In this document: positions 8,631-31,746 of the stretch, one piece after another
How positions within the stretch are numbered: the first letter of the stretch is position 1
Layout of the letters: each line of letters starts with the position of its first letter
Origin: Nesterenkonia massiliensis
GTDB lineage: Bacteria > Actinomycetota > Actinomycetes > Actinomycetales > Micrococcaceae
Direction: 5' to 3'
Length of the DNA stretch: 60,052 nucleotides
Assembly (NCBI RefSeq): GCF_000455245.1
Contig: NZ_HG005165.1
Coordinates: 567,723 to 627,774 of the forward strand
The notes under the pieces: generated by a model
The model's input: only the letters and a program-made list of their open reading frames with translations
The model's database searches: none
Told to the model about the DNA's origin: nothing
Translations under genes and position numbers: made by a program

Positions 8631-9539
8631 ATGAATACCAATACTCCCGCCGCGCTGCGCCTGGGCGCACTCGGGGCAGCAGCCCTGCTTGCCCTGACTG
8701 CCTGCGGAAACGACGCCGGTGATGACACCACTGCGGAATCCAACGGTGCTGCCGAGAACGGCGCCGCCGCGGACGGCGCAGAAGCCGTCACCATCGCCAT
8801 AGCTGGCGAAGATCCATACTCCTACCTCGACGAAAACGGCGAACCCACGGGGGCCACAGTAGCCGTGGCGCAGGAGATCTTCGGTGAGCGCATGGGATAC
8901 GCAGTGGATATCACCGAAGAACCAACCTGGGGCAACCTGATCCCGGGCCTGGGTGCAGGACATTGGAATGTGGTGTCCGCAGGTATGTCCATCACCCCCG
9001 ATCGCTGCGCCGAAGCTGCCTTCGGAGAGCCTGAGCTGGTCTACACCACCGCGTTCCTGGTAGAGGACGGCAATCCCCACAACGTCCACAACTTCGATGA
9101 TCTGTCCGAGGCGAACATCAATGTTGTTGCCATGTCCGGCGCTGTGGAGGCCGGTTGGATGGATGACCTCGGCATTGAATACAGCACAGTGGACACACCG
9201 GACGACGGCATCGATTTCGTCGAGGGCGGCCGTGCTGATGTCTTTGCGCTGACCGCCATTTCGCTGCAGTCTATGGCCGGCGACATGGACGGGGTTGAGG
9301 TCACTGACTCCTTCGCCCACGAAATCTCCGTCGGCGCACACGCATTCCGCCTCGAAGACGAAGACCTGGTGGCAGAGTTCAACGAGCACCTCGCTGAACT
9401 TCAGGACTCCGGTGAGTACCTCGATCTCGTGAGCGAGTTCGGCTTCACCGAGGACGAAATGCCCCCTAGCGGCCTGACCGCTCAGGAGCTTTGCGAAGAG
9501 GATCCCGCCGAGCTCACAGAACAGTACCTCGAGGACTGA
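8631..9539 (+). CDS. ehuB: Ectoine/hydroxyectoine ABC transporter substrate-binding lipoprotein EhuB
   Basis: A 302-residue extracytoplasmic binding protein of family 3. A lipoprotein signal peptide ends in the lipobox LTAC (Cys25), followed by an acidic, Asn/Ala/Glu-rich spacer. The mature domain begins IAIAGEDPYSYLDENGEP and contains the family segment WGNLIPGLGAGHWNVVSAGM. The tail FGFTEDEMPPSGLTAQELC is what I associate with EhuB specifically. The protein is strongly acidic, in line with a salt-exposed surface. It would deliver ectoine or hydroxyectoine to EhuCD. ATG at 8631 is the only sensible start. First gene of ehuBCDA; no ectoine-degradation (eut/doe) genes are in the window, so the solute may serve as an osmoprotectant, not as food. 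Confidence 0.85.
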   Translation: MNTNTPAALRLGALGAAALLALTACGNDAGDDTTAESNGAAENGAAADGAEAVTIAIAGEDPYSYLDENGEPTGATVAVAQEIFGERMGYAVDITEEPTWGNLIPGLGAGHWNVVSAGMSITPDRCAEAAFGEPELVYTTAFLVEDGNPHNVHNFDDLSEANINVVAMSGAVEAGWMDDLGIEYSTVDTPDDGIDFVEGGRADVFALTAISLQSMAGDMDGVEVTDSFAHEISVGAHAFRLEDEDLVAEFNEHLAELQDSGEYLDLVSEFGFTEDEMPPSGLTAQELCEEDPAELTEQYLED

Positions 9540-9549
9540 TCCTCGCCTC

Positions 9550-9592
9550 TGACTCTGCGGCCAGCTCCCAAGGGGCTGGCCGCAGAGTCAGG
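9550..9592 (+). terminator. Strong hairpin between ehuB and ehuC
   Basis: A perfect 17-bp inverted repeat (CTGACTCTGCGGCCAGC at 9550-9566 and its complement at 9576-9592) with a 9-base loop lies 10 bases after the ehuB stop and 26 bases before ehuC. There is no U-run behind it, so it is probably a partial terminator or a 3'-end stabiliser that keeps the binding-protein message more abundant than the permease and ATPase messages. Confidence 0.75.
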
Positions 9593-9617
9593 TCCGCACT
9601 GATCTGAGAGGACTTCG

Positions 9618-10403
9618 ATGGACTTCTTCGAGGACTGGTCTGACTATTTCGAAGTAGTCATCAACTGGTCTGACCGTCTGCTGGACGGACTGTTAACCAC
9701 AATCCAACTAACGCTCTACGGCGGTGCACTAGCTTTTGTCATCGCCATCGTTCTGGGCCTTATGGCTGGTAGCCCGAGCTTGTGGCTACGCGTACCGGCC
9801 CGCATCATCATCGAGTTCTTCCGCGGAATTTCGTTGGTGGTGCTGCTTTTCCTGCTTCTCTACGTCCTACCCCAGATTTGGATGCGAAACCCCGGGCTGC
9901 CCTTTGAGGGACTAGTCCGCAACACCTTCCTGGTGGGTGTGCTGGCGTTGGGCATCAACTATGGCGCCTACGGTGCCGAAGCCGTGCGCGCGTCGCTGAC
10001 CACCGTGGCAAAGGGCCAGTGGGAGGCCACCACGGCACTGTCCATGTCATGGCCGCACAAGATGCGGCGAGTGATCTTCCCGCAGGCATGGGCCCTGATG
10101 ATTCCTTCCCTGTCGAATCTCTGGGTGCATCTGCTCAAAGGCAGCGCCATCGCGTACATCATTCCGTTCGTCAGCGATTTCACTGCGGAGCTGAACAATC
10201 TGCGCCGGCCTACCGACATTTGGTTCTCCCACGCATTTATCGGCCTCATTGTCTACTTCCTTCTGGCACTCAGCATCACTCTGCTGATGCAGTTGCTGGA
10301 GACCCGGGCGAAACGACGACTGGGACGCGGCGCGCCCGTCCGTCAGTCCACCTCCGCGGACCAGCCCAGCTCCACTGCCACGACCTCAGGAGGTTCGCGA
10401 TGA
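9618..10403 (+). CDS. ehuC: Ectoine/hydroxyectoine ABC transporter permease EhuC
   Basis: A 261-residue inner-membrane permease of the polar amino acid (HisM/GlnP) family. Membrane helices begin near residue 20; the permease loop that docks on the ATPase is visible as EAVRASLTTVAKGQWEATTA (about residues 123-142). The C-terminal tail is Arg/Ser-rich and cytoplasmic. GAGAGGA precedes ATG 9618. The stop overlaps the ehuD start (ATGA). Assignment as EhuC rests on family resemblance and on the gene order ehuB-C-D-A. Confidence 0.83.
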   Translation: MDFFEDWSDYFEVVINWSDRLLDGLLTTIQLTLYGGALAFVIAIVLGLMAGSPSLWLRVPARIIIEFFRGISLVVLLFLLLYVLPQIWMRNPGLPFEGLVRNTFLVGVLALGINYGAYGAEAVRASLTTVAKGQWEATTALSMSWPHKMRRVIFPQAWALMIPSLSNLWVHLLKGSAIAYIIPFVSDFTAELNNLRRPTDIWFSHAFIGLIVYFLLALSITLLMQLLETRAKRRLGRGAPVRQSTSADQPSSTATTSGGSR

Positions 10404-11122
10404 CCCGTGTCACTATCAGCGCGGCAGAGATCGAGGACCCCACACTGGTGGATGAGGACCAGGTCCGCCAGAGCCCTTTCTGGGACTGGGAATTCGCCCT
10501 CGATGCGTTGCCAGATATGCTCTTGGCCTTCCTGCAGGTCACGCTGGTCGTCACCGTGGTGGGAACCCTGATCGCCGCCGTCCTGGGGCTGGTCATCGCT
10601 GTACTCCTGCGCGTCCTGCCCGCTCCCTTGGCTTGGGTCCTCAAATGGGCCGCCAACTTCATCCGGATGACCCCGATCGTGGTCCAGCTGATCTTCGTCT
10701 TCTGGACCTTTATGTGGCTAGACAGTTTGACCATCGGCATCGTGGTCTTTGGAGTGCACTACGCAACCTATATGTCTGAGGTCTACCGGGCCGGAATAGA
10801 GTCCGTACCCAAAGGCCAATGGGAAGCTGCCACCGCACTGTCTATGCCGCCCGTGCGAGTTTGGCGCAAAGTTGTCATCCCGCAGGCGCTGCGCTCCACG
10901 GTGCCTTCACTGGGTAACTACGCGATCTCGATGTTCAAGGACACGCCTTTCCTCATCGTCATCTCGGTGGCGGAGATGGTGACCGTAGCCGGACAGATCG
11001 GTGCGCCCACCTTCCGATACACCGAGGTCTACGTCATCGCGGGTCTCATTTTCCTTGCGGCCAGCTACCCCACCGCTGTGCTCATCAATCGATTGGAGAA
11101 GCGTCTTGCCTACGCACACTGA
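10400..11122 (+). CDS. ehuD: Ectoine/hydroxyectoine ABC transporter permease EhuD
   Basis: The second permease of the importer, 240 residues, paralogous to EhuC. After a 30-residue acidic cytoplasmic lead come five hydrophobic segments; the ATPase-docking loop is EVYRAGIESVPKGQWEAATA. ATG 10400 overlaps the ehuC stop by four bases and has CAGGAGG eight bases upstream, so longer in-frame openings into ehuC are rejected. The product should form a heterodimer with EhuC. Confidence 0.83.
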   Translation: MTRVTISAAEIEDPTLVDEDQVRQSPFWDWEFALDALPDMLLAFLQVTLVVTVVGTLIAAVLGLVIAVLLRVLPAPLAWVLKWAANFIRMTPIVVQLIFVFWTFMWLDSLTIGIVVFGVHYATYMSEVYRAGIESVPKGQWEAATALSMPPVRVWRKVVIPQALRSTVPSLGNYAISMFKDTPFLIVISVAEMVTVAGQIGAPTFRYTEVYVIAGLIFLAASYPTAVLINRLEKRLAYAH

Positions 11123-11939
11123 CTCAGCCGGCGCTCACCCGGACCACTCATCACCGTCTTCAGCCGCGACTCCGGTCATCGAGTTCGTCGACGTGGAAAA
11201 GCGCTTCGGCAGCAACACCGTCCTGAAAGACCTCAATTTCAGCGTTGCCCGCGGAGAGCGGGTCACACTCATTGGGCCCTCCGGCTCGGGCAAGACCACC
11301 ATCCTGCGATTAGTCATGACTCTTGAGGAGCTCACCGGCGGCTACATCTACGTCGACGGCCAGCCACTGACCTACGAGGACCGTGCAGGGCGTCGAGTTC
11401 CCGTGCCCAAGAAGCAGCAGAAGGCCCTACGCACACGGATCGGCATGGTCTTCCAGCAGTTCAATCTCTTCCCCAATATGACCGTGCTGGAGAACATCAT
11501 CGAAGCCCCGATCCACGTGCTCGGCCAGTCCAAGAAGGACGCTATGAGCAAAGCGTATTCCCTCCTGGAGCAGGTAGGGCTGCCGGATAAAGCCGATGCT
11601 CATCCGCTGAGCCTCTCCGGCGGTCAGCAGCAGCGCGTTGCCATCGCACGCGCGCTGGCGATGGATCCGGAGATCCTGCTGCTTGACGAAGTGACTTCCG
11701 CCCTGGATCCCGAAGTGGTGGGAGATGTGCTGAATATCCTGCGCGACGTCGCAGATTCCACAAACGTCACCATGCTGATCGTCACCCATGAGATGGGCTT
11801 TGCCCGCGATGTCTCGCACAAAGTGATGATGTTCGACGGCGGGCGCGTAGTGGAAGAGGGTCATCCGGATCAGATCTTCACTTCACCGACCCACGCCCGC
11901 ACCCAGCAATTCCTCTCCGCCGTGCTCGGGGAGAGCTGA
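11106..11939 (+). CDS. ehuA: Ectoine/hydroxyectoine ABC transporter ATP-binding protein EhuA
   Basis: The ATPase that powers the importer, about 277 residues. Walker A GPSGSGKTT, Q-loop VFQQFNLF, signature LSGGQQQR, Walker B EILLLDEVTSALDP and the switch His in IVTHEMG are all intact. The insert between Walker A and the Q-loop and the phrase EAPIHVLGQ fit EhuA. The start is uncertain: TTG at 11106, overlapping the ehuD end by 17 bases and preceded by GGAG, is preferred because no ATG or GTG lies between it and the conserved IEFVDVEKRFG. Confidence 0.85.
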   Translation: MPTHTDSAGAHPDHSSPSSAATPVIEFVDVEKRFGSNTVLKDLNFSVARGERVTLIGPSGSGKTTILRLVMTLEELTGGYIYVDGQPLTYEDRAGRRVPVPKKQQKALRTRIGMVFQQFNLFPNMTVLENIIEAPIHVLGQSKKDAMSKAYSLLEQVGLPDKADAHPLSLSGGQQQRVAIARALAMDPEILLLDEVTSALDPEVVGDVLNILRDVADSTNVTMLIVTHEMGFARDVSHKVMMFDGGRVVEEGHPDQIFTSPTHARTQQFLSAVLGES

Positions 11940-13543: not shown

Positions 13544-14452
13544 ATGGCCACACAGACAATGTCCTTCACTGAGCTCTCCAGGGAACAGCACCGCGCGCGT
13601 GCGATCGACCACCAGCGCACCGTCGCTCGCTTTGCTGAGGGCTTCCTTCAGCGCAGGCAGGCTGGCAAGAAACACCCGGTGGAAGATTTTCTGTTCACCT
13701 ATTACTCACATACCCCGGGCCAACTCTCTCGCTGGCATCCTGGCGCAGGCGTGGTGCTTGCAGAAGCCGGCAGCTCTGAGCAGGCAACCTGGAAGTTCTA
13801 CACCACCGTTGATGACGGAACGCCAGCCGGTGGGGCTACGGTCGACGTCGCCCGTTTTCGCGAAGAACGGGCGGAGATGATTGATTTTGCGCGGCGGCTG
13901 CTCGGCACCACTGCCGCGAAGCCAGCCCAGTTAGGCTGTTTCGGACTGCATGAGTGGGCCATGGTCTATCAATCCCAGAAGCACGGTCAGCGCCACGATG
14001 AGGTACCGCTGCGATTAGGTGCAGCCGGCACCGACGATCTCGTGGAATCTCTGAGCATTAAGTGCACGCATTTTGACGCATTCCGGTTCTACACCCCGTC
14101 AGCCAAGCCCCTGAACGCCCAGCAGCCCACCCGCGAGACCCAGGTCCAGATGGAACAGCCGGGCTGCCTTCACGCGAATATGGACCTGTACAAATGGGCG
14201 TACAAGCTCACCCCAGCCATCAGCAGTGATCTGCTGATGGAGTGTTTCGACCTAGCCTGGCGCATCCGAGAACTGGATATGCGGGCCTCACCTTATGATC
14301 TGCGGGCCTGGGGCTATGAGCCGGTCCGTATTGAGGAGCCCTCAGGGCGAGCAGAGTATGCCCGGACCCAAAAGTCCTTCAGTGAAGAAGCGCAGGTGCT
14401 GCGCGGCAAGATTCTCTCAGCCCTGGACCACCTCGAGGCACTGCCGGCATAG
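13544..14452 (+). CDS. Conserved actinobacterial protein, often labelled 3-methyladenine DNA glycosylase
   Basis: A 302-residue cytoplasmic protein with the conserved block HPVEDFLFTYYSHTPGQLSRW near residue 43 and a second conserved run FGLHEWAMVYQ near residue 128. Close homologues in actinobacteria carry the name 3-methyladenine DNA glycosylase, but I see no helix-hairpin-helix glycosylase motif, so that function is unproven. The middle contains KCTHFDAFRFYTPSAKPLN, which looks like a ligand-binding loop with His and Cys. ATG 13544 is taken; a second Met five codons on is possible. It sits after the lysC terminator with its own promoter region, converging on the gene at 14464. Confidence 0.7.
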   Translation: MATQTMSFTELSREQHRARAIDHQRTVARFAEGFLQRRQAGKKHPVEDFLFTYYSHTPGQLSRWHPGAGVVLAEAGSSEQATWKFYTTVDDGTPAGGATVDVARFREERAEMIDFARRLLGTTAAKPAQLGCFGLHEWAMVYQSQKHGQRHDEVPLRLGAAGTDDLVESLSIKCTHFDAFRFYTPSAKPLNAQQPTRETQVQMEQPGCLHANMDLYKWAYKLTPAISSDLLMECFDLAWRIRELDMRASPYDLRAWGYEPVRIEEPSGRAEYARTQKSFSEEAQVLRGKILSALDHLEALPA

Positions 14453-14463
14453 ACCCCTGAGGA

Positions 14464-15123
14464 TCAGGCGCTGGCGCCGGTGAGTACCTGCTGGCACTGG
14501 TCCAGCAGCGCGCGCATCTGCTCCGCGGTATGCCGGCCGTTGAAGATCTCTGTGCCGTTCTCAAACGTCCTCCCTGCACTGAGCGGACCTGCGTCCACGC
14601 CGTCGTAGCCCAGGGAGTCAACGAACTCAGCCACAAGCTGCTTGGCGGCCTCGTCATCAGAGGCCACAGCTAAGGCGCGGCGCTTGGTGTCACCGGCGGG
14701 GTAGGAATCAACCTCGAGGTCCCCGTAGCCGATGTGGTTCAGTGTCTTGACCAGGCGTACATCGCCGAGGAAGTCAGCAATGACTTCACTGGTGGAGCGG
14801 CCGGTCTCGAACTCCTCCATGATCCCATCTACCGGCGCCCAGTAGTTCATGGTGTCGATGACCACGTGACCCTGGAGCACGCTGTTATCAATGGAGCGGT
14901 ATTTGTGCAGCGGCACTGCCAGGACGATGATGTCGGATCCGCGCAGCTCGTCCCGGTTGACGGCGGTGGCACCGGGGACGATCACCTCGGTCAGCAGCTT
15001 GATCTCCTCAGCAGGCCGACTCGTCGCGATCTTCACGGTGTGCCCGGCGCGCACGGCCTGCCGGCCCACGGCAGTGCCTACACGACCGGCGCCGAGAATC
15101 CCTATAGTCAGTGGCTGCGGCAT
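14464..15123 (-). CDS. NADPH-dependent F420 reductase-like oxidoreductase
   Basis: A 219-residue Rossmann-fold protein. The dinucleotide-binding motif GILGAGRVGTAVG is at residues 8-20, followed by ATSRP, the segment that reads the 2'-phosphate of NADP in this family, and by DIIVLAVPLHKY. It belongs to the F420-dependent NADP reductase group (pfam03807 type), which in many actinobacteria without F420 may act on other substrates. It lacks any membrane segment. Convergent with the preceding gene (11 bases apart) and divergent from purS. Confidence 0.8.
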   Translation of the reverse strand: MPQPLTIGILGAGRVGTAVGRQAVRAGHTVKIATSRPAEEIKLLTEVIVPGATAVNRDELRGSDIIVLAVPLHKYRSIDNSVLQGHVVIDTMNYWAPVDGIMEEFETGRSTSEVIADFLGDVRLVKTLNHIGYGDLEVDSYPAGDTKRRALAVASDDEAAKQLVAEFVDSLGYDGVDAGPLSAGRTFENGTEIFNGRHTAEQMRALLDQCQQVLTGASA

Positions 15124-15351
15124 GAGCGTGTCCCCTCATCTGGATCGGTATGGCTGGAGGTCAAGGTCTTTCCAATTTGAAAGAACACGACGACGACGCC
15201 AACTGTTCCCGACGTGGCGGAGGTCACCGGCCCTGCGGGCCAGCGCATCACGGGTAGACTTGATGGGCAAGCTCGCGGAGCGCTCGGACTCGAGCGTGAG
15301 ACGGCACTCCAGCGGGCAGATCACCGCATCTACTTAAACGCAGGAGAATCG

Positions 15352-15615
15352 ATGCCGCGCATTATTGTCGAGGTCATGCCCAAACCTGAGATCCTCGACC
15401 CGCAGGGCAAAGCAATCGTCAACGCACTCCCCCACCTGGGATTCACCGAATTCTCCGGCGTCCGCCAGGGTAAGCGGTTTGAGCTGACAGTCGACGGCGA
15501 GGTCACCGAGGAGATCCTCCAGCAGGCCCGCAAGGCCGCCGCGGAGATGCTCTCCAACCCGGTGATTGAAGACGTGGTGGCTGTGCGAGTTGATGACGAG
15601 GGTGACGCCGCGTGA
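15352..15615 (+). CDS. purS: Phosphoribosylformylglycinamidine synthase subunit PurS
   Basis: An 87-residue PurS, the small bridging subunit of the three-part FGAM synthase that makes the fourth step of purine synthesis. Visible are the opening [20 protein letters not shown] and the family end [20 protein letters not shown] stands seven bases before ATG 15352; the reading frame is open further upstream but without support. The stop overlaps the purQ GTG start. Confidence 0.95.
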
Positions 15616-16397
15616 GCGTGGAGACCCCTCTGATTGGCGATTTCACCGCCGCACCTGCTCAATCCCGGCTGGCTGGTGCGCGTATCGGCGTGGTGACTTT
15701 CCCCGGAACACTCGATGACCGCGACGCCGCCCGCGCGGTTCGCCTCGGCGGCGGCACCCCCGTTGCACTGTGGCACGCAGACCAGTCCCTCCACGGAGTG
15801 GACGCTGTGGTGCTGCCCGGCGGATTCTCCTACGGAGATTATCTGCGCGCTGGCGCCATTGCCCGCTTCGCCCCGGTGATGGACACCATCGTCAAAGAAG
15901 CTCAGGCCAAGGACACCTCTGCGGCTGCTCTGCCCGTCCTCGGTATCTGCAATGGGTTCCAGATCCTCACCGAAGCGCATCTGCTGCCCGGTTCGATGAT
16001 CAAGAACAACCACCTGAAGTTCATCTGCCGCGACCAGGCACTGCGCGTGGAGAATAATCAGACCGCCTGGACCAGCCAGTTCACCGATGATGAGATCATC
16101 GCGATCCCGCTGAAGAACCAGGACGGCCAGTATGTGGCCGACGACGCCACCCTCGCCCAACTCGAGGACGAGGGCCGCGTGGTGTTCCGCTATGTAGGCG
16201 GCAACCCCAACGGTTCCCGCAATGACATTGCCGGGATCACCAATGAGGCCGGCAATGTGGTGGGCCTGATGCCGCATCCGGAGCATGCCGTAGAAGCTGG
16301 CTACGGACCGGACGACACCACCGGGATGCGCAACGGCACCGACGGACTGACCCTGTTCACCTCCGTCATCTCGTCCCTGGCAGGAGCAACTAAATGA
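15612..16397 (+). CDS. purQ: Phosphoribosylformylglycinamidine synthase subunit PurQ (glutamine amidotransferase)
   Basis: The glutaminase subunit, 261 residues, which supplies ammonia to PurL. The class-I amidotransferase triad is visible: Cys113 in GICNGFQ and the His/Glu of MPHPEHA near residue 225. [16 protein letters not shown] is the other family signature. It carries a 24-residue N-terminal lead before IGVVTFPGT and is a little longer than most PurQ. Its GTG overlaps the purS stop and its stop overlaps the purL ATG, so the three subunits are coupled. Confidence 0.96.
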
Positions 16398-22131: not shown

Positions 22132-22896
22132 TCAGAAGGGGTTCAGCAGCCGGTGCACGAACCGGCGGGTGCGCTCCTCGCGAGGCGCGCGCAGCACTTC
22201 ACTGGCCGGACCTTGCTCCACCACCACGCCGCCGTCCATGAAGACCACCTGATCGGCGACTTCTCGGGCGAAGGTCAGCTCGTGGGTGACCAGGACCATG
22301 GTCCAACCCTCTTCGGCGAGTTCTTTGATGACCGTCAGCACGTCTGCGACCAGCTCCGGGTCCAGCGCTGAAGTCGGTTCATCAAAGAGCAGCAGTGAAG
22401 GCCGCAGAGCTAGCGCCCGCACAATGCCTACACGCTGCTGCTGACCGCCGGAGAGCTCATGCGGGTACTGGTCCCGCTTCTCAGCCAGACCGACCCGGGC
22501 CAGCAGCTGCTCGGCTTCGGCGATAACCTCCGCCTTCGGGCGGCGCTGGACCTGCACGGGACCTTCGATGACGTTCTGCAGCACGGTCATATGCGGAAAC
22601 AGGTTGTAGCCCTGGAAGACCATCGCGCTGCGCGTGCGCAGGCTCTCCCGCTGCTGGCGTGAGGTGCGCGAGTCGAAGTTCACCTGCGGGCCGCCGTCGA
22701 AGGCCACCGTCCCTGCGTCGGGCTGCTCAAGCCCGTTGAGGCAGCGCAGCACGGTGGTTTTGCCCGAGCCGGAGGGACCGATCAGCGCGGTGACCTGCCC
22801 GGGATTGACTCTCAGGTCGATGGAGGAGAGCACTGTGTTCTCTCCAAAGGACTTTTGCAGACCAGTGACGTCCAGCAGCGGTTTACTTGGCGACAT
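22132..22896 (-). CDS. Amino acid (probably L-cystine) ABC transporter ATP-binding protein
   Basis: A 254-residue ATPase of the polar amino acid group. Walker A GPSGSGKTT, Q-loop VFQGYNLFPHM, signature ELSGGQQQR, Walker B SLLLFDEPTSALDP and VTHELTF are intact. Its start overlaps the permease gene by 14 bases. With the cystine-type binding protein upstream it is TcyC-like. It ends ten bases from the convergent MMPL gene. Confidence 0.87.
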   Translation of the reverse strand: MSPSKPLLDVTGLQKSFGENTVLSSIDLRVNPGQVTALIGPSGSGKTTVLRCLNGLEQPDAGTVAFDGGPQVNFDSRTSRQQRESLRTRSAMVFQGYNLFPHMTVLQNVIEGPVQVQRRPKAEVIAEAEQLLARVGLAEKRDQYPHELSGGQQQRVGIVRALALRPSLLLFDEPTSALDPELVADVLTVIKELAEEGWTMVLVTHELTFAREVADQVVFMDGGVVVEQGPASEVLRAPREERTRRFVHRLLNPF

Positions 22897-23548
22897 AGCG
22901 GTCCAGTCTCCTTTCCAACCTGACCTGCACCATGGACAGCAGCAGACAGATCACCCAGTACATAGCTGCTGCCTGAAGATACAGGGCCATGAACTCAAAG
23001 GACGACGCCGCGATCTGCTGCGCAACACGGAACATTTCGGTGACCAGAATCAGCGAAGCCAGTGAGGTGTCCTTCACCAAAGAGATGAAGGTGTTGGACA
23101 GCGGAGGCACAGAAACTCTGGCGGCCTGCGGCAGGATAATCCGACGCAGCGTCTGGGTCTGCGACATGCCGATGGTGTATCCGGCCTCCCACTGGCCTTT
23201 CGGCACGGAGAGAATCGCAGCACGAATGACCTCAGCGGCATAGCCGCCCACATTGAGGCTGAAGGCGATGATCGCGCTGGGCCACGGGTCAATGTTGACC
23301 CCAATGGATGGCAGCCCGAAGAAGATCACAAACAGCTGCACCAGCAGCGGGGTGCCGCGGATCACCGAGACATAGGCCCGTGCCACACCGGCGAGCACAC
23401 GGTTTCTGCTGATGCGCATCAGCGCCACCACCAGGGCGATCGCCAGGCCGATCGAGAAGCTTGCCAGGGTCAGCGGAATGGTGCCTTTGATGGCCCCTTC
23501 GAGCATCGGCCAGAAGGAACTGGCCGCCAGTTCCCAGTCGATGGTCAC
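22883..23548 (-). CDS. Amino acid (probably L-cystine) ABC transporter permease
   Basis: A 221-residue permease of the HisMQ family with about five membrane helices. The ATPase-docking loop is AAEVIRAAILSVPKGQWEAG (about 105-124), and RGTPLLVQLFVIFFGLPS precedes it, both family hallmarks. Placed between the binding-protein and ATPase genes of one operon. It probably works as a homodimer since there is only one permease gene. Confidence 0.87.
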   Translation of the reverse strand: MTIDWELAASSFWPMLEGAIKGTIPLTLASFSIGLAIALVVALMRISRNRVLAGVARAYVSVIRGTPLLVQLFVIFFGLPSIGVNIDPWPSAIIAFSLNVGGYAAEVIRAAILSVPKGQWEAGYTIGMSQTQTLRRIILPQAARVSVPPLSNTFISLVKDTSLASLILVTEMFRVAQQIAASSFEFMALYLQAAAMYWVICLLLSMVQVRLERRLDRYVAK

Positions 23549-23602
23549 GTCCAGGTTGCCTTTCCTCGAGTCGGGCGCGGATCTTGGTGCCGCACTGCGG
23601 GA

Positions 23603-24427
23603 CTACTGAGAGACGTCAGCGCCGAAGTACTTTTCGCTGATCTCAGTCAGCGTACCCTCCTCGGCCAGCTCGGCCAGAGCCTCATCGAAGGCCTCGACCA
23701 ACGTCTCACTGCCCTGCCGGAAGATGAAACCAGCATAGGAGTGGTCATCGGTTTCAGCCGCGATCTTGATGTTCTCGTTGTCCTCGGTGGTCTGGTAATC
23801 GAGGAAGGTGAGCTTGTCATTGATGGTCGCATCAACCCGGCCCTGCTCCAGCAGCGCCACAGCCTGAGCCCAGCCTTCGACACCTTCAACATTGGCACCG
23901 GACTCGGTTGCCAGCTCGTACCAGTTAGAGGTCAGGGACTGAGCGGTGGTCTTATCGTCGAGGTCATCGAAGCTGCTGATCTCATCATTATCGGCAAGGG
24001 TGACGATCACACCGTTGGAGACGGTGTAGGGCTCGGAGAAGAGGTAGTTCTGCTGACGCTCCTCGGTGATTGACACCTGGTTGGCGATGACGTCAAAGCG
24101 GCCGGCGTCCAGGCCGGCGAACATCGCGTCCCACTGGGTTTCCTGGAACTGGATATCGATGTCCAGCTTCTCACCCACGGCTTCGATGATCTCTACGTCA
24201 TAGCCGGTCAGGTCACCGGAACCGCCCTCGTGGAAGGTGAAGGGACGGTAGGTTCCTTCGGTGCCCACCGTCAGACCGGATTCCTGGACCTGCTCCAGGC
24301 TCACGCCGCCGGAGGTCTCCTCTGCGGTGGGCTCGGCAGCCGGCTCCGCGGAGTCGTTACCGCAGGCAGCTAGAGCAAGTGCGGCGATACCAGTGACGGC
24401 GAGTACAGAATGACGGCGGAAGCTCAT
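23603..24427 (-). CDS. Amino acid (probably L-cystine) substrate-binding lipoprotein
   Basis: A 274-residue family-3 binding protein. The signal peptide ends in lipobox ALAAC, then an Ala/Glu/Pro spacer. The mature part begins LTVGTEGTYRPFTFHE; VEGVEGWAQAVALLEQGRVD and ATINDKLTFLDY are characteristic of the TcyA/FliY cystine-binding group, so L-cystine is the likeliest ligand. ATG 24427 (SFRRHS, Arg-rich n-region) is chosen over two upstream Met codons. First gene of the three-gene importer. Confidence 0.85.
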   Translation of the reverse strand: MSFRRHSVLAVTGIAALALAACGNDSAEPAAEPTAEETSGGVSLEQVQESGLTVGTEGTYRPFTFHEGGSGDLTGYDVEIIEAVGEKLDIDIQFQETQWDAMFAGLDAGRFDVIANQVSITEERQQNYLFSEPYTVSNGVIVTLADNDEISSFDDLDDKTTAQSLTSNWYELATESGANVEGVEGWAQAVALLEQGRVDATINDKLTFLDYQTTEDNENIKIAAETDDHSYAGFIFRQGSETLVEAFDEALAELAEEGTLTEISEKYFGADVSQ

Positions 24428-24469
24428 GGGTTTAGTGCTCTTTCTCAAGGACATGGAAGCGTGCAACGA

Positions 24470-25127: not shown

Positions 25128-25623
25128 TCAGGTCTGAGGTGGTGAGTCTGCGCCGTCGGACCTTGCTGTGTCAGCGGCAGCCTCGGGTTCGGCCAGCATG
25201 CCGGGCTCGGTTTTTGCCACGACCCGGGTGCAGGTCAGATCGCCGGTGACGATCTGGGTCAGGCTCAAGTCCGTGCCGGTGACATTGGCAACGAAGACCG
25301 TGGCAGCGCCGACGTAGATAGCGGTGCCGTCTATGTTCACGTTCGAACCCAGTGGCAGGGTGAAGGAGTAGACACCCTTACGCACCCCTAGACGCTCGGC
25401 GGCCTGGATACCCACCGGCAGGGTGCCCCCGGAAGAACGGGTGACAAAGGCGGTCAGCATCGGTTCCGGTCTCGCCCACCACTACCGCGATCACGGCAAT
25501 ATCAGGGCCGAAGATCCAGCTTGGCCACCACGCCTAGCACCAGGGCTACGGCCAGTTTCAGATCAGTGAGATCCCTAGGTAACGGCGCCACAGTGAGGGC
25601 TTCTGGCTGCTGGCCTCAGTCAT
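25128..25623 (-). pseudogene. Remnant of a dicarboxylate/amino acid:cation symporter gene
   Basis: Translation from ATG 25623 gives a normal family N-terminus (PSLWRRYLGISLI) and then a stop at once; a one-base shift restores KLAVALVLGVVA, and a further shift restores GPDIAVIAVVV. The sequence then jumps to a late part of the family (AFVTRSSGGTLPV, then FTLPLGSNVNIDGTAIY) and, after a second loss, to the C-terminal tail (VTGDLTCTRVVAKTE). So about 500 bases remain of a gene normally near 1.3 kb, with at least two frameshifts and two deletions. Its ATG overlaps the ctlX stop (ATGA), which shows it was once the third gene of the ocd-ctlX operon. The tail alone stays open for 110 codons, but lacks most transport elements. 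Confidence 0.85.
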
Positions 25624-26801
25624 GAGAGACGAGGGTACCGGCGGGATGTTTCAGCTGAGTTTCCGTAACCCCACGTCTTCCTGGGAGCCTGCGGCGAAAG
25701 GTAGTTCTGCGCAAGCATGCAGCGCACTGATCCCCCGGCTCGTTCAATAGTGGGGACCTCCGCAGCAATAATCTGCGCCTTGGCTTCCAACTGCTGGAGC
25801 TGTGTGGCGGTAAAGCTGGCACGCGCCGTCGTCGACATCACCAGAACCGGTCCGTGGCGGCCCTGCAGCTGAAGCACATTGGCGGCGAAGCTTCGGATCT
25901 GCGTCTCGTTCAGTTCCACTACGGTGCGTCCCGAGCTGCGCAGTCGGTCCAGGACTGCGTCGCGCTCGTACCGGCTGTGGATCATCGAGCTGCCGATCAC
26001 CGCTAGACCATGCTCAAGGTTGGCGCTGCCCACGCTGAGCATGACATTAGTGTGATAGACCGGTGTGCCGGTCTTGTCAGCGGCATGGAACAGTACGGGC
26101 TCGTACATGAACTCATTGCACCAGCGGAAGAACAGAGTCGCGGTAATACGCTGGGAATAGCACGCATAGGCGGTCCGGCTGGCGTGGTCCAGCACCATCG
26201 CTCCGGTACCTTCTAGATATGCGCCGTGCTCTTCGGCGCCGGAGAGGTCCAGCACCTCTGTGACGCGGTAGCGATCCTTCAGGTGCTCCACGATCTCCCT
26301 CCGGCGTTCGCCGCGCCGATTCGGGGCGAACATCGGATAGAGCACCAGCCGGCCATCGGCGTGCGTGCTGAACCAGTTATTGGGAAACACGCTGTCGGGC
26401 GTGACAGTTCCGGTGTCTTCGAAAAGTTCCACGCCGACGCCGGCCCGCTGAAGCTGCTCGGCGAGCCTGGAGACTTCCCCGTGGGCACGCTTGCCCACCA
26501 GCACCGGATCCTCGGTGATTTCCGCTCCAAAGGCGTTGTCCTGGGCGGTCACCGGGTTCGGCCTGAAGTGATGCGGCCGGACCATCACTACTCGGGCTGC
26601 CAGCTGCGGGTCTCCAGCTGCCTCGTACCCCTTCATGAGGGCCCTGGCAGAGGAGCCGCCGTCGTCGTTGGTCTGCTCGTATGCAACAACGCTGTGCCCA
26701 GCTCGCCCCATTCGGTGGTCCACAGCGGCCGACGGCGCGACCGGTGATGCCGCTGTCACAGTCACCGGCGGATGCGAGGTCAATGCCGGGGGCTCTGACA
26801 T
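25620..26801 (-). CDS. ctlX: CtlX-type citrulline/arginine-processing hydrolase (amidinotransferase superfamily)
   Basis: A 393-residue member of the guanidine-modifying superfamily (arginine deiminase, DDAH). The family N-terminus VVMVRPHHFRPNPVTAQDNA starts at residue 71; PDSVFPNNW (135-143), YLEGTG (195-200), the catalytic His250 in VYHTNVMLSVG and the nucleophile Cys361 in GSVRCMLAQN are all in place. Homologues named CtlX are thought to hydrolyse citrulline (or arginine) to ornithine. The first 70 residues are an extra, low-complexity lead. It begins three bases after the ocd stop, so the two are co-translated, and ornithine made here would feed the cyclodeaminase. The exact substrate is inference. 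Confidence 0.78.
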   Translation of the reverse strand: MSEPPALTSHPPVTVTAASPVAPSAAVDHRMGRAGHSVVAYEQTNDDGGSSARALMKGYEAAGDPQLAARVVMVRPHHFRPNPVTAQDNAFGAEITEDPVLVGKRAHGEVSRLAEQLQRAGVGVELFEDTGTVTPDSVFPNNWFSTHADGRLVLYPMFAPNRRGERRREIVEHLKDRYRVTEVLDLSGAEEHGAYLEGTGAMVLDHASRTAYACYSQRITATLFFRWCNEFMYEPVLFHAADKTGTPVYHTNVMLSVGSANLEHGLAVIGSSMIHSRYERDAVLDRLRSSGRTVVELNETQIRSFAANVLQLQGRHGPVLVMSTTARASFTATQLQQLEAKAQIIAAEVPTIERAGGSVRCMLAQNYLSPQAPRKTWGYGNSAETSRRYPRLS

Positions 26802-26804
26802 AGC

Positions 26805-27833
26805 TCAGCCCACCGGCTTCAGCGAGGTCACCAGGGAGAAGAGATCTTTGGGGTCCTCCGGGTCTGCAATGAGGTCGATACTGGTCTGCAGTGATGAACC
26901 AACGGTGTCATCACGCAGATAGCGCAGTGCCGAGAAGTCGGCGATGGCGAATCCGACGGAGTCGAAGAGAGTGATGTCTTCATCGTTGCGACGGCCCTGT
27001 TCGGCTCCGGTGAGCACCCGCCAGAACTCAATGACCGGGAAGTCCGCGGGCTTCTGCTGGATTTCGCCTTCGATGCGGGTCTGTTCCGGATACTCCACAA
27101 AGACCCGGGCCCGGTCCAGGATGCGGGAGTCTAGCTCGGTCTTGCCGGGACAATCGCCTCCTACGGCATTGATGTGGACGCCGGGGCGGACCTGGCGGTC
27201 TGCCAGGATGGTGTTGACAGCTTTGTCTGCAGTGCAGGTGGTGATGATGTCAGCACCGGTCACCGCATCATCAGCGTCGGTGGCAGTGGTGATCCGGAAT
27301 CCGAGTGGTTCGAGATTGCGGCGCAGCTTGTAGATGGCATGCGGGTCGATGTCGAAGACGCGGAGTTCCTCGATGCCCAGGACGGCTCTGAAGGCCAGTG
27401 CCTGGAATTCTGCCTGGGATCCTGCGCCGATCATGGCCATCACCCTGGAATCCGCCCGCGCAAGGCGCTTGGCGGTCATGGCCGAGGTAGCAGCGGTGCG
27501 CAGTGCGGTCAGCAGAGTCATTTCGGCCAGAAAAGTCGGGTAGCCATTGTCCACGTCCGCTAGCACGCCGAATGCCGTGACAGTCTGGAACCCCCGCGCA
27601 GGGTTGGACGGGTGCCCGTTGACGTATTTGAAGCCGTAGGTCTCGTGATCTGAGGTGGGCATCAACTCGATCACCCCGAAGGGGGTGTGGCTGGCGATGC
27701 GCGGGATCTTGTCGAAGCTCTCCCAGCGGCTGAAGTCAGACTCGAGGTACTCGACCATGCCAGTCATGATGGGCTCTACGCCCCGGTTCTGGATCCACTG
27801 GACCATATGGGCGACGTCGACGAACTGAGTCAT
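26805..27833 (-). CDS. ocd: Ornithine cyclodeaminase
   Basis: A 342-residue NAD-dependent enzyme of the ornithine cyclodeaminase/mu-crystallin family, converting ornithine to proline and ammonia. Seen: the N-terminal substrate region (GVIELMPTSDHETYGFKYV), the Rossmann motif MIGAGSQAEFQALAF near residue 140, and GGDCPGKTELD near residue 225 carrying the catalytic Asp. Start ATG 27833 has GGAGG seven bases upstream; the ATG-less extension to 27878 is discarded. First gene of the operon ocd-ctlX-(symporter remnant). The pairing with ctlX and, across the HNH gene, with arginine deiminase points to ornithine rather than other imino acids as substrate. Confidence 0.88.
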   Translation of the reverse strand: MTQFVDVAHMVQWIQNRGVEPIMTGMVEYLESDFSRWESFDKIPRIASHTPFGVIELMPTSDHETYGFKYVNGHPSNPARGFQTVTAFGVLADVDNGYPTFLAEMTLLTALRTAATSAMTAKRLARADSRVMAMIGAGSQAEFQALAFRAVLGIEELRVFDIDPHAIYKLRRNLEPLGFRITTATDADDAVTGADIITTCTADKAVNTILADRQVRPGVHINAVGGDCPGKTELDSRILDRARVFVEYPEQTRIEGEIQQKPADFPVIEFWRVLTGAEQGRRNDEDITLFDSVGFAIADFSALRYLRDDTVGSSLQTSIDLIADPEDPKDLFSLVTSLKPVG

Positions 27834-28346
27834 GGTTTCCTCCATCTTGAGACGGGCTGGGGCTGATGGAACCAACACTAGGAATATCGATGTGCGTGCA
27901 ACAGAGCAGAAATGTCTGACTTTTGCCTAGTTCTTGAGCAGACCGATCAGCCGGTGGTGACAGATTGCCACGCGCCGGGATGCGGCGGAGCGGCCATGAG
28001 TGACGAACGACGATGACGGACGGGCGAGAGCATGGTGGCGCGGTCTTTCGGCTGCGGAGACGCGTCTGGTGCCTCAACGGAGGCGCGCTCGCTCGGCATG
28101 ATCACCCAGAAACACCAAAGAGCGAAAAAACTCATCAAAACCCCTCGACCATCACGCTGAAGCATGGAATAATAGAACATAGATTCTATGTGGCGACAGT
28201 GCCGCAGGGCGAAACCCAAGTAAACAGCCAGGACGACAGCCACACAGGCGAGCGCGAAGCCAACCACGCAGACAGGTGCACGCAGGCATGTGCGCATAGG
28301 TATAAGGCCAGGCCGCAAGGCCGGCACAGGGACAGGGGTGATTACC
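27834..28346. promoter_or_regulatory. Gene-free divergent region with a perfect palindrome at 28177-28191
   Basis: This 513-base stretch separates ocd (left) from the DUF222/HNH gene (right). ACATAGA-T-TCTATGT at 28177-28191 is a perfect 15-base inverted repeat; GAATAAT just before it could be a -10 box for the right-hand gene. Near 27900-27925, GCAGAAAT and ACTTTTGC form an imperfect dyad before ocd that could be an Lrp/AsnC site. No credible ORF was found in the rest. Confidence 0.45.
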
Positions 28347-29876
28347 ATGGCAGCTTCTTCCACCAGCAGCGCCAGCAGTGCCCCTCCTATGCCTGAGCAC
28401 CTGAGAGCCCTCGCCGGGGAACCAGAACTGTCTGCAGCCTGGGAGCAGCAGGTCGCTGCACGGCGAGCTGAAGCAGCCACCATCACCGCACTTCTTGACT
28501 ACCGGCAACGGACTGCCACGCATTATGCCCAGGAACCCCTGGTCACCCGGTCTGAGGCAGACCGTGCCGCTGTTCGTGATGCCGCCCGGATCCTCGGGAC
28601 CAGTGACCGCACCGCGACCACTGTCCTGAACACCACACAGGACGCTAAGCGCCTTCTCCCCCGCACGTGGGGAGCATTCTGTGAGGGTCTTATTAACCTG
28701 CCCCGGGTGCGGAAAACCGTCGACGCCGCCACCACCAGTAGCCTGCCTGATCACGTGCTGCGACAACTGGACCAGGCCGCGGCAGAACAAGCCCAACGCC
28801 GTAGTCTCTCAGAGTTTCATCACTGGCTCACCCGCTACATCGCCTCACTCGACCCAGAGGCCTACGCCAGGGCTTGTGAGAAAGAAACCCAGTCCCGGTT
28901 CGTGAGGTTTCAGCACCAGTCCCACGGGATGAGCTACCTCCAGGCCTACATCCCCACCTTGGAAGCTGCCGCTATTGAGAAGCGACTCAAAGCTGCGGCC
29001 CGCGGACTCGACCAGCACACCTCGAGCGGGGACACCGCGACTGAACACCGCCAGGCAGACCCTGGGGCCGCGGAACCAGGCATCGCACACGGCAACCCAG
29101 GACAGGGCAGCCCGACCGCAGCTCCAAAGGACGCCAGTGGCGCCCACTCCAGTACCACTGACGGCCCTACCTCCGATCCTCAAACTTCGGACCCCCGCAC
29201 CACAGACCCCCGCACCACGGACCCACGCACCGGTGACCCTCGCACCCTTGCTCAGCGGGAAGCAGACCTCCTCACCGCATGGCTTCGCGATGGACGCGTC
29301 TATGACGCCGCGGTTGATGCCAAGATCATGATCATGATCCCCGAGGCCACCCTCACCGGTGACAGTGATGAGCCGGCGATGGCAGCAGATCGGTCATGGA
29401 TGATCCCCGCCCACCAGGCCAGGAACCTCGCCGCAGACCCCGAAGCCAACCACCACTGGTACCAAGGCCATACCCGCAAGGATTCTAGGAACGCCGAGTA
29501 TGACCTGCTCAGTGCTCGGTATATCGGCCGGTACCCACCAGAGCACCTACGCGACGCGCTGATCTTCCGGGACGGGACCTGCCAAGCCGATGGGTGCACC
29601 ATCAGCGCTGAGCGCTGCGACATCGACCACCAAACCCCCTGGGAACACGGCGGAGAAACCACCGCCGACAACCTCTGGGCGTTATGCCGGCGTCATCACC
29701 GGATGAAATCCCACGGCTTCCTCCACCCACCGGATAAACAACAGCCCCACAACGCCGGGCCCAAGACCGAGCCCGAGCCCGAACCCGAACCACCGGGCCC
29801 AGCTCCGGGGCACCCGGCAAGACCAGACTTCATCTGGTCCGCGCCCATGCCCGTGCGCTATGACCTTGCTGCGTAA
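28347..29876 (+). CDS. DUF222 / HNH endonuclease-domain protein (13E12 repeat family)
   Basis: A 509-residue protein with an N-terminal DUF222 domain (about residues 40-230) and a C-terminal HNH nuclease domain: CDIDHQTPWEHGGETTADNL then CRRHHRMKSHG, with paired cysteines for zinc. Members of this family occur in many variable copies in actinobacteria (13E12 repeats of mycobacteria) and several are induced by DNA damage; their role is unknown. A variable linker between the domains holds a 15-base tandem repeat. ATG 28347 has AGGGGTG before it. It splits the arginine/ornithine locus in two, which suggests it inserted there. No transposase or flanking repeats were seen. Confidence 0.85.
   Translation: MAASSTSSASSAPPMPEHLRALAGEPELSAAWEQQVAARRAEAATITALLDYRQRTATHYAQEPLVTRSEADRAAVRDAARILGTSDRTATTVLNTTQDAKRLLPRTWGAFCEGLINLPRVRKTVDAATTSSLPDHVLRQLDQAAAEQAQRRSLSEFHHWLTRYIASLDPEAYARACEKETQSRFVRFQHQSHGMSYLQAYIPTLEAAAIEKRLKAAARGLDQHTSSGDTATEHRQADPGAAEPGIAHGNPGQGSPTAAPKDASGAHSSTTDGPTSDPQTSDPRTTDPRTTDPRTGDPRTLAQREADLLTAWLRDGRVYDAAVDAKIMIMIPEATLTGDSDEPAMAADRSWMIPAHQARNLAADPEANHHWYQGHTRKDSRNAEYDLLSARYIGRYPPEHLRDALIFRDGTCQADGCTISAERCDIDHQTPWEHGGETTADNLWALCRRHHRMKSHGFLHPPDKQQPHNAGPKTEPEPEPEPPGPAPGHPARPDFIWSAPMPVRYDLAA
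29175..29249 (+). repeat. 15-base tandem repeat inside the DUF222/HNH gene
   Basis: Five 15-base units encode DPQTS, DPRTT, DPRTT, DPRTG and DPRTL. Units two and three differ by one base. As the unit is a multiple of three, copy-number change would alter linker length without breaking the frame. Confidence 0.85.
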
Positions 29877-29901
29877 TCGTGCGCGCCGGGCAGCAGTCCT
29901 G

Positions 29902-30333
29902 CTACGTCACCACTGAACTGAGCAGCAACGAGGTCTCACTGTTGAGAACTCCCTTCACGCCCCGCATGAGGCGAAGCACCCTGTCCAGATCGCGCAGATC
30001 CGTACAGCTGATTTCCGCCACCAGATCCCAGGCGCCGTTGGTGGTGTGCAAGGCGATGATCTCCGGCAAACCACGCAGTTCATCGATCGCCCGATCAGTA
30101 TTGGTGCCTGCTACTTCGATAAACGAAATCGCTCGCACCCTGGAGAGATCCGCATCCTCCCGCACGCGCACGCTGAATCCCACGATCACCCCAGATGCAG
30201 TGAGCTTCTCGATACGGGAGGTGACAGTGGCACGGGAAACGCCCAACTGCTGGGCCAGCGATGAGATAGGCGCACGCCCATCCTTACGCAAGGCTGCTAT
30301 CAGGCGACGGTCCAGGTCCGTGAGTCTCTCCAT
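29902..30333 (-). CDS. Lrp/AsnC family transcriptional regulator
   Basis: A 143-residue regulator. The N-terminal helix-turn-helix is LTDLDRRLIAALRKDGR then LAQQLGVSRATVTSRIEKL; the C-terminal RAM (ligand-binding) domain follows (SFIEVAGTNTDRAIDELRGL, TTNGAWDLVAEIS). Divergent from arginine deiminase with 102 bases between them that contain a candidate operator. Likely it senses arginine, ornithine or another amino acid and controls arcA, perhaps also ocd-ctlX. Start ATG 30333. Confidence 0.9.
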   Translation of the reverse strand: MERLTDLDRRLIAALRKDGRAPISSLAQQLGVSRATVTSRIEKLTASGVIVGFSVRVREDADLSRVRAISFIEVAGTNTDRAIDELRGLPEIIALHTTNGAWDLVAEISCTDLRDLDRVLRLMRGVKGVLNSETSLLLSSVVT

Positions 30334-30373
30334 GAACAGAATGCTAACTCTCAGCGTTCAAAGCGACAGCTGA

Positions 30374-30390
30374 TTGCACAAAAATATGCA
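30374..30390. promoter_or_regulatory. Candidate Lrp/AsnC operator before arginine deiminase
   Basis: TTGCACAAAAATATGCA: two TGCA boxes around an A/T-rich centre, between the divergent Lrp and arcA genes, 46 bases before arcA. AT-rich-centred imperfect dyads are usual for Lrp-family proteins. Confidence 0.5.
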
Positions 30391-30435
30391 CCACGCACCT
30401 GTCCGCCGTACATCCATCCCTCTACTGTGGAGCCC

Positions 30436-31746
30436 ATGGTTGAAACAGTCACCGACAGTGAGCAGACCGCCGAGAAGGCTGTTCCCGGCAGCCCGCTAGC
30501 CCAACGACCGCATCAGAGTGGACCGTTCGTAGGTTCTGAAGTTGGACGACTGCGCCAGGTGATCGTTCACCGTCCGGGAGTAGAGCTGCTGCGACTGACC
30601 CCCGAGACCAAGCACGATCTGCTTTTCGACGATTTGTTGTGGGTCCGACGCGCTCAGGAAGAACACGATCAGTTCTGCCACGTGCTTCGTGAAGCAGGGG
30701 CAGACGTCCTCTACCTCGATACGCTCCTGACTGAGACTCTTTCGGTGCCGCAGGCCCGCCAGTTTGTCCTCGACCACACCTTCGATGAGCGCCTCTTCGG
30801 CCCGGCCGCCGCCCCGCTGCTTCGGGAGCTGGCCGATTCAATGCCGCACGCCGACCTCGCAGAGTTAGTCATCAGCGGGCTCACCAAGCGGGAACTTCTG
30901 GAACTCACCGCTGAACCCCGGTCCGTGGTCATCCATGCCCTCGCGATGGATGACCTTGTGGTGGCTCCACTGCCGAACCACCTCTTCACCCGCGATGCCT
31001 CATGCTGGGTCTACGACGGTGTGGCTGTGAACTCCATGCAGAAGCCGGCCCGCACTCGGGAAGCCATCACCTATGAAGCAATCTATCGATGGCATCCCCG
31101 CTTCGCTTCTACGAGCTGGCAGCGCTGGTCTGACGGCCTCACAGACGGTCAGGCCACTGTAGAAGGTGGGGATGTGCTGGTTCTGGGCGACGGCGCAGTT
31201 CTGGTCGGGATGAGCGAACGCACCACCCCGCAGGGCGTGGAACGCCTGGCGAAGCGGCTCTTCGCCGAGGGTTCGGCTGACCGCGTGGTGGCACTGAGTA
31301 TGCCCAAGTCACGCGAGTTCATGCACTTAGACACGGTGATGACCATGGTGGATGAACGGTCCTTCATCGAATACGCAGGACTTGGGACACTGCCGTCCTA
31401 CACCATCACTCCACGCGAGAATGGCGTAGACCCAGAGCTGAAAATCCAGGACCACCCGCCAGAACGCATGCACGCCGCAATTGCCGATGCGCTGGGACTC
31501 GATCACCTGCGCATCCTCACTCCGGAGCAGGACCTGCACTCCGCGGCCCGGGAACAGTGGGATGACGGCTGTAACGCCCTGGCACTTGAACCCGGTGTGG
31601 TCATCACCTATGACCGGACACCCACCTCCAACGCCTTTCTGCGCGATTCAGGGATTGAAGTCCATGAAGTTCCAGGCGCAGAACTCGGTCGAGGTCGAGG
31701 TGGCCCCCGCTGCATGAGTTGTCCCACCCAACGCGACCCGGTGTAA
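30436..31746 (+). CDS. arcA: Arginine deiminase
   Basis: A 436-residue arginine deiminase, hydrolysing arginine to citrulline and ammonia. Seen: SEVGRLRQVIVHRPGVEL near residue 35, the substrate-binding FTRDASCWVYDG, VEGGDVLVLG, the His of FMHLDTVMTMVDE, and the catalytic Cys426 in GPRCMSCP near the C-terminus. The 30-residue lead before the fold is longer than usual. Start is ATG 30436 with GGAG close upstream; GTG 30427 is an alternative. No ornithine carbamoyltransferase, carbamate kinase or arginine/ornithine antiporter accompanies it, so it is not the usual ATP-yielding arc operon. Citrulline could pass to CtlX and ornithine cyclodeaminase nearby. Confidence 0.93.
   Translation: MVETVTDSEQTAEKAVPGSPLAQRPHQSGPFVGSEVGRLRQVIVHRPGVELLRLTPETKHDLLFDDLLWVRRAQEEHDQFCHVLREAGADVLYLDTLLTETLSVPQARQFVLDHTFDERLFGPAAAPLLRELADSMPHADLAELVISGLTKRELLELTAEPRSVVIHALAMDDLVVAPLPNHLFTRDASCWVYDGVAVNSMQKPARTREAITYEAIYRWHPRFASTSWQRWSDGLTDGQATVEGGDVLVLGDGAVLVGMSERTTPQGVERLAKRLFAEGSADRVVALSMPKSREFMHLDTVMTMVDERSFIEYAGLGTLPSYTITPRENGVDPELKIQDHPPERMHAAIADALGLDHLRILTPEQDLHSAAREQWDDGCNALALEPGVVITYDRTPTSNAFLRDSGIEVHEVPGAELGRGRGGPRCMSCPTQRDPV

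Follow-up and report, generated by a model that had tools for sequence, protein, structure and literature searches.

In this study, we examined a 6.1-kb stretch of Nesterenkonia massiliensis DNA that carries, in order, ctlX, ocd, a DUF222-HNH gene, lrp and arcA, as read from the list of open reading frames (ORFs) and their domain matches; it lies within the 60,052 nucleotides analysed here, hereafter the window. With a probability of roughly 70%, we read the locus as an arginine-catabolic cluster in which arginine deiminase (ArcA), the putative citrulline hydrolase CtlX and ornithine cyclodeaminase (OCD) would act in succession, with proline passed on to glutamate, and in which arcA would have joined an older core twice. 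The enzymes are ordinary; it is their arrangement that is new, with arcA joined to ocd-ctlX in two lineages. In the proposed pathway, ArcA would convert arginine to citrulline and ammonia, CtlX would hydrolyse citrulline to ornithine and carbamate, the latter falling apart to ammonia and CO2, and OCD would convert ornithine to proline and ammonia, after which a proline dehydrogenase of PutA length, encoded elsewhere in the genome, would carry proline towards glutamate. One of these amino acids is probably the signal for the Lrp-type protein, which would control ocd-ctlX and perhaps arcA. Substrates, direction of flux and regulation are the parts of this scheme that we infer. An earlier note on this DNA had placed an arginine deiminase, a CtlX-type hydrolase, an ornithine cyclodeaminase and an Lrp regulator together here, which the ORFs and family matches bear out; its conversion of arginine through citrulline and ornithine to proline agrees with the domains, the catalytic residues and the missing carbamate kinase, with the substrates predicted from sequence.

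The identity of each enzyme gene was established from profile matches, solved relatives and catalytic residues. The product of arcA (30427-31746, plus strand) scores 487.4 bits against PRK01388 (cut-off 414) and aligns over residues 35-439 with the arginine deiminase 1rxx (E 1.6e-92). Its active-site residues D190, E246, H300, D302 and C429 are all aligned to 1rxx, and the motifs FTRD, EGGD and MHLD are retained, with CMSCP standing against CMTCP; the deiminase mutants D166A, H278A, D280A and C406A appear in the titles of matched structure entries. Against the equivalog TIGR01078 it scores 449.7 bits, below the cut-off of 489.1 bits; of 396 genomes from the order, 162 have a match and 12 exceed this cut-off. 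The conserved part of ArcA begins at about residue 34, and the true start may lie downstream of the annotated one. The ornithine cyclodeaminase gene ocd (26805-27878, minus strand), which forms a tight pair with ctlX, scores 540.2 bits against PRK07589 (cut-off 350), and among solved structures its product is closest to the ornithine cyclodeaminase 1u7h/1x7d (E 5.8e-118), with an alignment from residue 16; the likely start is the ATG at 27833, giving a feature of 26805..27833.

The product of ctlX (25620-26801, minus strand) has the GME/pentein fold and scores 363.8 bits against the NCBIfam equivalog citrull_CtlX (NF046062; cut-off 334). In place of the FTRD and HLD motifs it carries FPNN and HTN, so that N142 and N252 replace the two Asp residues that bind the guanidinium group. 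These two residues and the catalytic E197, H250 and C361 are invariant in all 79 aligned CtlX sequences, a set that comprises the window and the loci of the wider scan described below (L109, whose frame is broken, and L164 were excluded). Plain-text patterns for all four CtlX motifs are found in 62 of the 79, with 16 misses near the Cys and one near the Glu, in columns that are invariant in the alignment.

Beyond the window, ctlX belongs to a conserved grouping. Among 118 genomes of relatives, CtlX occurs in 18 of the 30 Nesterenkonia genomes and in one of the 88 others, and in each of the 18 CtlX loci besides the window ocd adjoins ctlX and an lrp homolog, 62-76% identical to that of the window, adjoins ocd. 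This places the lrp-ocd-ctlX grouping far beyond chance. lrp and ocd diverge in 17 of the 18; in genome G001, as in the window, the two genes point in the same direction. A wider scan, of the best 80 of 591 confirmed CtlX loci (4 of the 80 from Nesterenkonia, overlapping the genus set), found OCD near CtlX in 60 loci, with 68 having an Lrp-type gene nearby and 58 having both, and the core in many rhizobia and other bacteria. Together, these counts and the 18 relatives indicate that ocd-ctlX is an old, widespread unit of which lrp is a part. A phylum-wide sample had CtlX in 2 of 396 genomes, and therefore gave no further linkage data. In one relative, G022 (L073), ctlX lies in two frames beside ocd and lrp, which would reflect either a lost gene or an error in the sequence.

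A second joining of arcA to this core was observed in genome G223, which, with that of the window, makes two genomes of the order with ArcA and CtlX within 10 kb of each other among the matches listed, a count that for second ArcA copies is a lower bound. In G223, ocd, ctlX and arcA share a strand, separated by 3 and 34 bp, with lrp transcribed divergently; the three enzymes are over the cut-offs of NF005762, NF046062 and PRK01388, respectively. The unbroken operon that the earlier note suggested seeking in relatives is therefore present, as lrp / ocd-ctlX-arcA. The lrp gene of the window (29902-30333, minus strand) has Pfam AsnC helix-turn-helix and ligand-binding domains that are both over their cut-offs, and in both genomes matches of the Lrp-type product to the Lrp/AsnC models lie under the cut-offs of those models. 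The ArcA of the G223 operon belongs to a clade distant from that of the window, which indicates at least two separate joinings of arcA. A second ArcA lies elsewhere in G223.

The remainder of the genome was searched for partners with which ArcA usually works. No carbamate kinase was detected in the window's genome at E<=1e-20, where amino-acid-kinase matches reach at most 34 bits, and one ornithine transcarbamylase is over cut-off, on another contig, with no second one over cut-off; we take a further 91-bit transcarbamylase match for PyrB. A full arc operon elsewhere, paired with this arcA, had been named in the earlier note as a finding that would count against its proposal, and none was seen in these searches, which did not cover arcD. 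Of 28 ArcA-bearing genomes examined, 26, among them G223, likewise gave no carbamate kinase at E<=1e-20, and none was found in 8 of 9 relatives in which arcA lies at a comEC site. Genome G014 alone has an additional set of arcA (part), arcB and arcC, on a 5.5-kb contig (L083, G014:C93), besides a lone arcA and ctlX. Since no carbamate kinase was detected and a single ornithine transcarbamylase is over cut-off, citrulline made by ArcA would be left without an outlet of the arginine deiminase pathway type. In genomes where no carbamate kinase was detected, an arginine deiminase has been joined to ocd-ctlX on separate occasions, and this speaks for citrulline as the compound on which CtlX acts. 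On balance, we favour a carbamoyl-phosphate-free arginine deiminase-citrullinase-cyclodeaminase pathway, assembled at least twice with arcA genes of different clades, and would take its repeated assembly as evidence from nature that CtlX truly acts on citrulline. If true, this would represent a variant form of arginine deiminase metabolism, yielding no ATP and avoiding the unfavourable reverse transcarbamylase step.

The history of arcA in this lineage differs from that of the core. ArcA occurs in 10 of the 30 Nesterenkonia genomes, together with CtlX in nine; the tenth, G006, is 79% complete. In the nine ArcA-bearing relatives of the window's genome, this type of ArcA is found in stretches with comEC and transglycosylase homologs (9/9; domains named for two). 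The window's genome keeps the genes that flank the comEC site, with no arcA between them, and its sole ArcA match is the arcA of the window. In the ArcA tree, the window protein branches inside the genus (100/99), and the other nine form its sister group. The comEC region of the window's genome groups with G006 and G023 (bootstrap 100), whereas its ocd, ctlX and lrp group with G001 (bootstraps 95, 85 and 96). Because these trees disagree, a move of arcA and its replacement by a related copy are indistinguishable, and we rejected simple relocation as the sole account, since replacement fits equally. Trees and flanking genes thus suggest that arcA joined the old lrp-ocd-ctlX core in the window lineage, having either moved from the comEC site or replaced a copy there. 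At the comEC site of the window's genome (L091), comEC and lepA (9345-11679 and 13588-15811) each match their relatives as two pieces in different frames, lepA with about 250 extra bases; these are either broken genes or assembly errors.

Upstream of ocd, a conserved 31-bp site with the consensus TTACATGTGCACATCGAGATCCCTAGGCTGA lies about 35 to 70 bp before the gene in the 16 relatives from which the matrix was built (lrp-ocd gaps L058-L073). For G015, one of the 16, the matrix script took the wrong place, though its lrp-ocd gap shows the site; a pattern search found no such ocd site in G001 and G098. In the window, the promoter/operator-like site before ocd-ctlX (27873-27903, minus strand) scores 14.2 bits, more than any other position in the window, and lies 39 bp ahead of the ATG at which OCD probably starts; we consider it a candidate Lrp site. 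The DUF222-HNH gene (28290-29876, plus strand; Pfam DUF222 and HNH), a bystander between ocd and lrp, lies outside this site, so that ocd-ctlX should still be transcribed as an unsplit pair. Its protein had no match in the 31 loci searched, and the gene is absent from the equivalent place in the other 18 CtlX loci, which makes it a likely insertion. The description of the region as a split locus, given in the earlier note, is therefore one that we do not retain: ocd-ctlX keeps its own promoter-like site with the HNH gene beyond it, and arcA is the odd member.

Several observations weigh against the proposed pathway. Half of the 18 CtlX genomes of the genus have no ArcA, and the eight other members with both genes have no arcA next to ctlX in stretches of 13.8 to 17 kb; indeed, arcA adjoins ctlX in none of the 18 loci of relatives, and no ArcA lies near ctlX in the 80 wider loci, where the search covered the loci and not the genomes for ArcA. 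In the sample of 396 genomes from the order, CtlX is present in 36, of which 20 have a strong ArcA, a weak co-occurrence (Fisher p 0.031, kinship uncorrected; the Fisher tests counted strong ArcA, leaving out, of the 162 genomes with a match, the 10 in which it was weak, with E above 1e-10). The gap between lrp and arcA (30334-30426) as a whole resembles the lrp-ocd gaps of relatives, a likeness equalled by none of 1000 shuffles and by 3 of 2000 pieces drawn at random from the window, and it is the lrp-side half that carries it; the arcA-side half is no better than shuffles (608/1000 as high). A weak, degraded ocd-type site before arcA (30400-30430) comes fourth in the window with 4.5 bits. 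With so low a score, and the arcA-side half not above shuffles, we rejected a shared promoter of arcA and ocd, and any control of arcA by the Lrp-type protein is accordingly a guess. Finally, in the published fitness data ctlX mattered on ornithine too, argG/argH mattered on citrulline, polar effects on ocd are possible, and the citrullinase role of CtlX is a proposal from those data (Price 2022; PMC9007349).

The isolated position of arcA in relatives, and the lack of a clear share for it in the ocd promoter, would be accommodated if its place in the window were accidental, its citrulline being recycled via ArgGH or exported, and ocd-ctlX serving imported citrulline only. We consider this unlikely, given that an arcA of another clade lies in a compact operon with ocd-ctlX in G223, and that CtlX is present in nine of the ten ArcA genomes of the genus, compared with 9 of the 20 without ArcA (Fisher p 0.024). 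A neighbour that may consume arginine is also seen elsewhere: on the Paracoccus aminophilus plasmid pAMI5 (L186), an arginase-family gene and amino-acid ABC transporter genes lie directly beside lrp, ocd and ctlX in their usual order. That arrangement resembles the one described here in having a possible arginine-consuming neighbour, and differs in that the neighbour is an arginase-family protein and not ArcA. Arginase-like genes were found near ctlX in 5 of the 80 wider loci, 3 of them strong, which together with Paracoccus suggests that different arginine-consuming enzymes may plug into lrp-ocd-ctlX. Among plasmids, a comparison by eye of 60 of 133 CtlX records with 60 of 412 and 20 of 411 ArcA records gave no accession in common, and none of six annotated plasmid regions inspected had both genes.

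The ctlX-ocd half of the pathway has already been published as a proposal. Price 2022 reported that ctlX and ocd (or aruFG) are important for growth on citrulline, noted the adjacency of ctlX to ocd, and proposed CtlX as a putative citrullinase that converts citrulline to ornithine (PMC9007349). In that work, the Asn residues of FPNN/HTN, in place of FTRD/HLD, were read as fitting an amide substrate, and its authors state that biochemistry is still needed for CtlX (PMC9007349). The system described there has the same two enzymes, adjacency and motifs as the window. Here, arcA has joined, so that arginine, and not citrulline alone, could enter, and lrp is part of the conserved core, whereas Lrp goes unmentioned in the available part of that text (PMC9007349). 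We found no description of an arcA-ctlX-ocd cluster in the literature searched, including the same available part (PMC9007349). CtlX is an annotated family with a function assigned from fitness data (PMC9007349), and the compact operon of G223 is suited to direct testing of its role.

The proposed pathway can be compared with two known routes. It shares its first enzyme, ArcA, with the arginine deiminase pathway arcABC(D), from which it differs in lacking a carbamate kinase and a second ornithine transcarbamylase over cut-off, so that no ATP would be made. Its overall conversion and balance would be those of cyanobacterial AgrE and PutA, which take arginine through proline to glutamate with release of one CO2 and three ammonium (PMC8262935), also without carbamoyl phosphate. 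Unlike the AgrE fusion, three separate enzymes would act here and citrulline would be a free intermediate. The fold of CtlX is closest to that of ArgZ/AgrE, with which it shares the hydrolase-domain fold, and CtlX could in principle be an arginine dihydrolase of the same kind that forms ornithine directly, leaving arcA redundant or with another role. This is an unlikely alternative: all 79 aligned CtlX have Asn at the two positions for guanidinium binding, identity to ArgZ is about 20%, and the CtlX sequence profiles A2 (built from 15 of 19 genes, L059, L061, L064 and L073 being left out) and A3 fail to reach ArgZ, giving chance-level matches to ArgZ/AgrE chains. Moreover, an arginine deiminase beside ocd-ctlX in two genomes, from different clades, would be pointless if CtlX used arginine.

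Nesterenkonia holds salt-tolerant species, and a route that ends in proline could have as its purpose the production of an osmolyte from arginine under salt, as the earlier note had suggested. We found no feature in support of this and regard it as improbable. In the window's genome, a 1221-aa frame, as long as a bifunctional PutA, contains a match to proline dehydrogenase, the PutA domain that was searched for, so that proline made by OCD could be burned; the genome also encodes ProC, and OCD is therefore not needed for proline synthesis. Burning of proline is at least as likely as its accumulation. The occurrence of the lrp-ocd-ctlX core in many rhizobia and other bacteria argues in the same direction, as does the absence of any osmotic gene found in the conserved core (flanks annotated for some loci). 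The published data on ctlX-ocd are also catabolic (PMC9007349). Lastly, a different substrate for CtlX, for instance a methylated arginine, is suggested by its match to Pfam PF19420, named DDAH_eukar, and by DDAH being among the closest folds, and is very improbable given that no NCBIfam dimethylargininase model matches at E 0.001 while the equivalog citrull_CtlX does, and that both guanidinium-binding Asp are Asn.

Two neighbouring features were considered separately. The ABC transporter at 22132-24466 was evaluated as an arginine importer, which we do not claim, since its top NCBIfam matches are cystine-type and under cut-off. Adjoining ctlX, a 110-aa ORF (25128-25460, minus strand) matches sodium:dicarboxylate symporters (SDF); it is a symporter remnant and lies outside the arginine system. 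Short pieces resembling this remnant are present near the corresponding place in G001 (locus L057).

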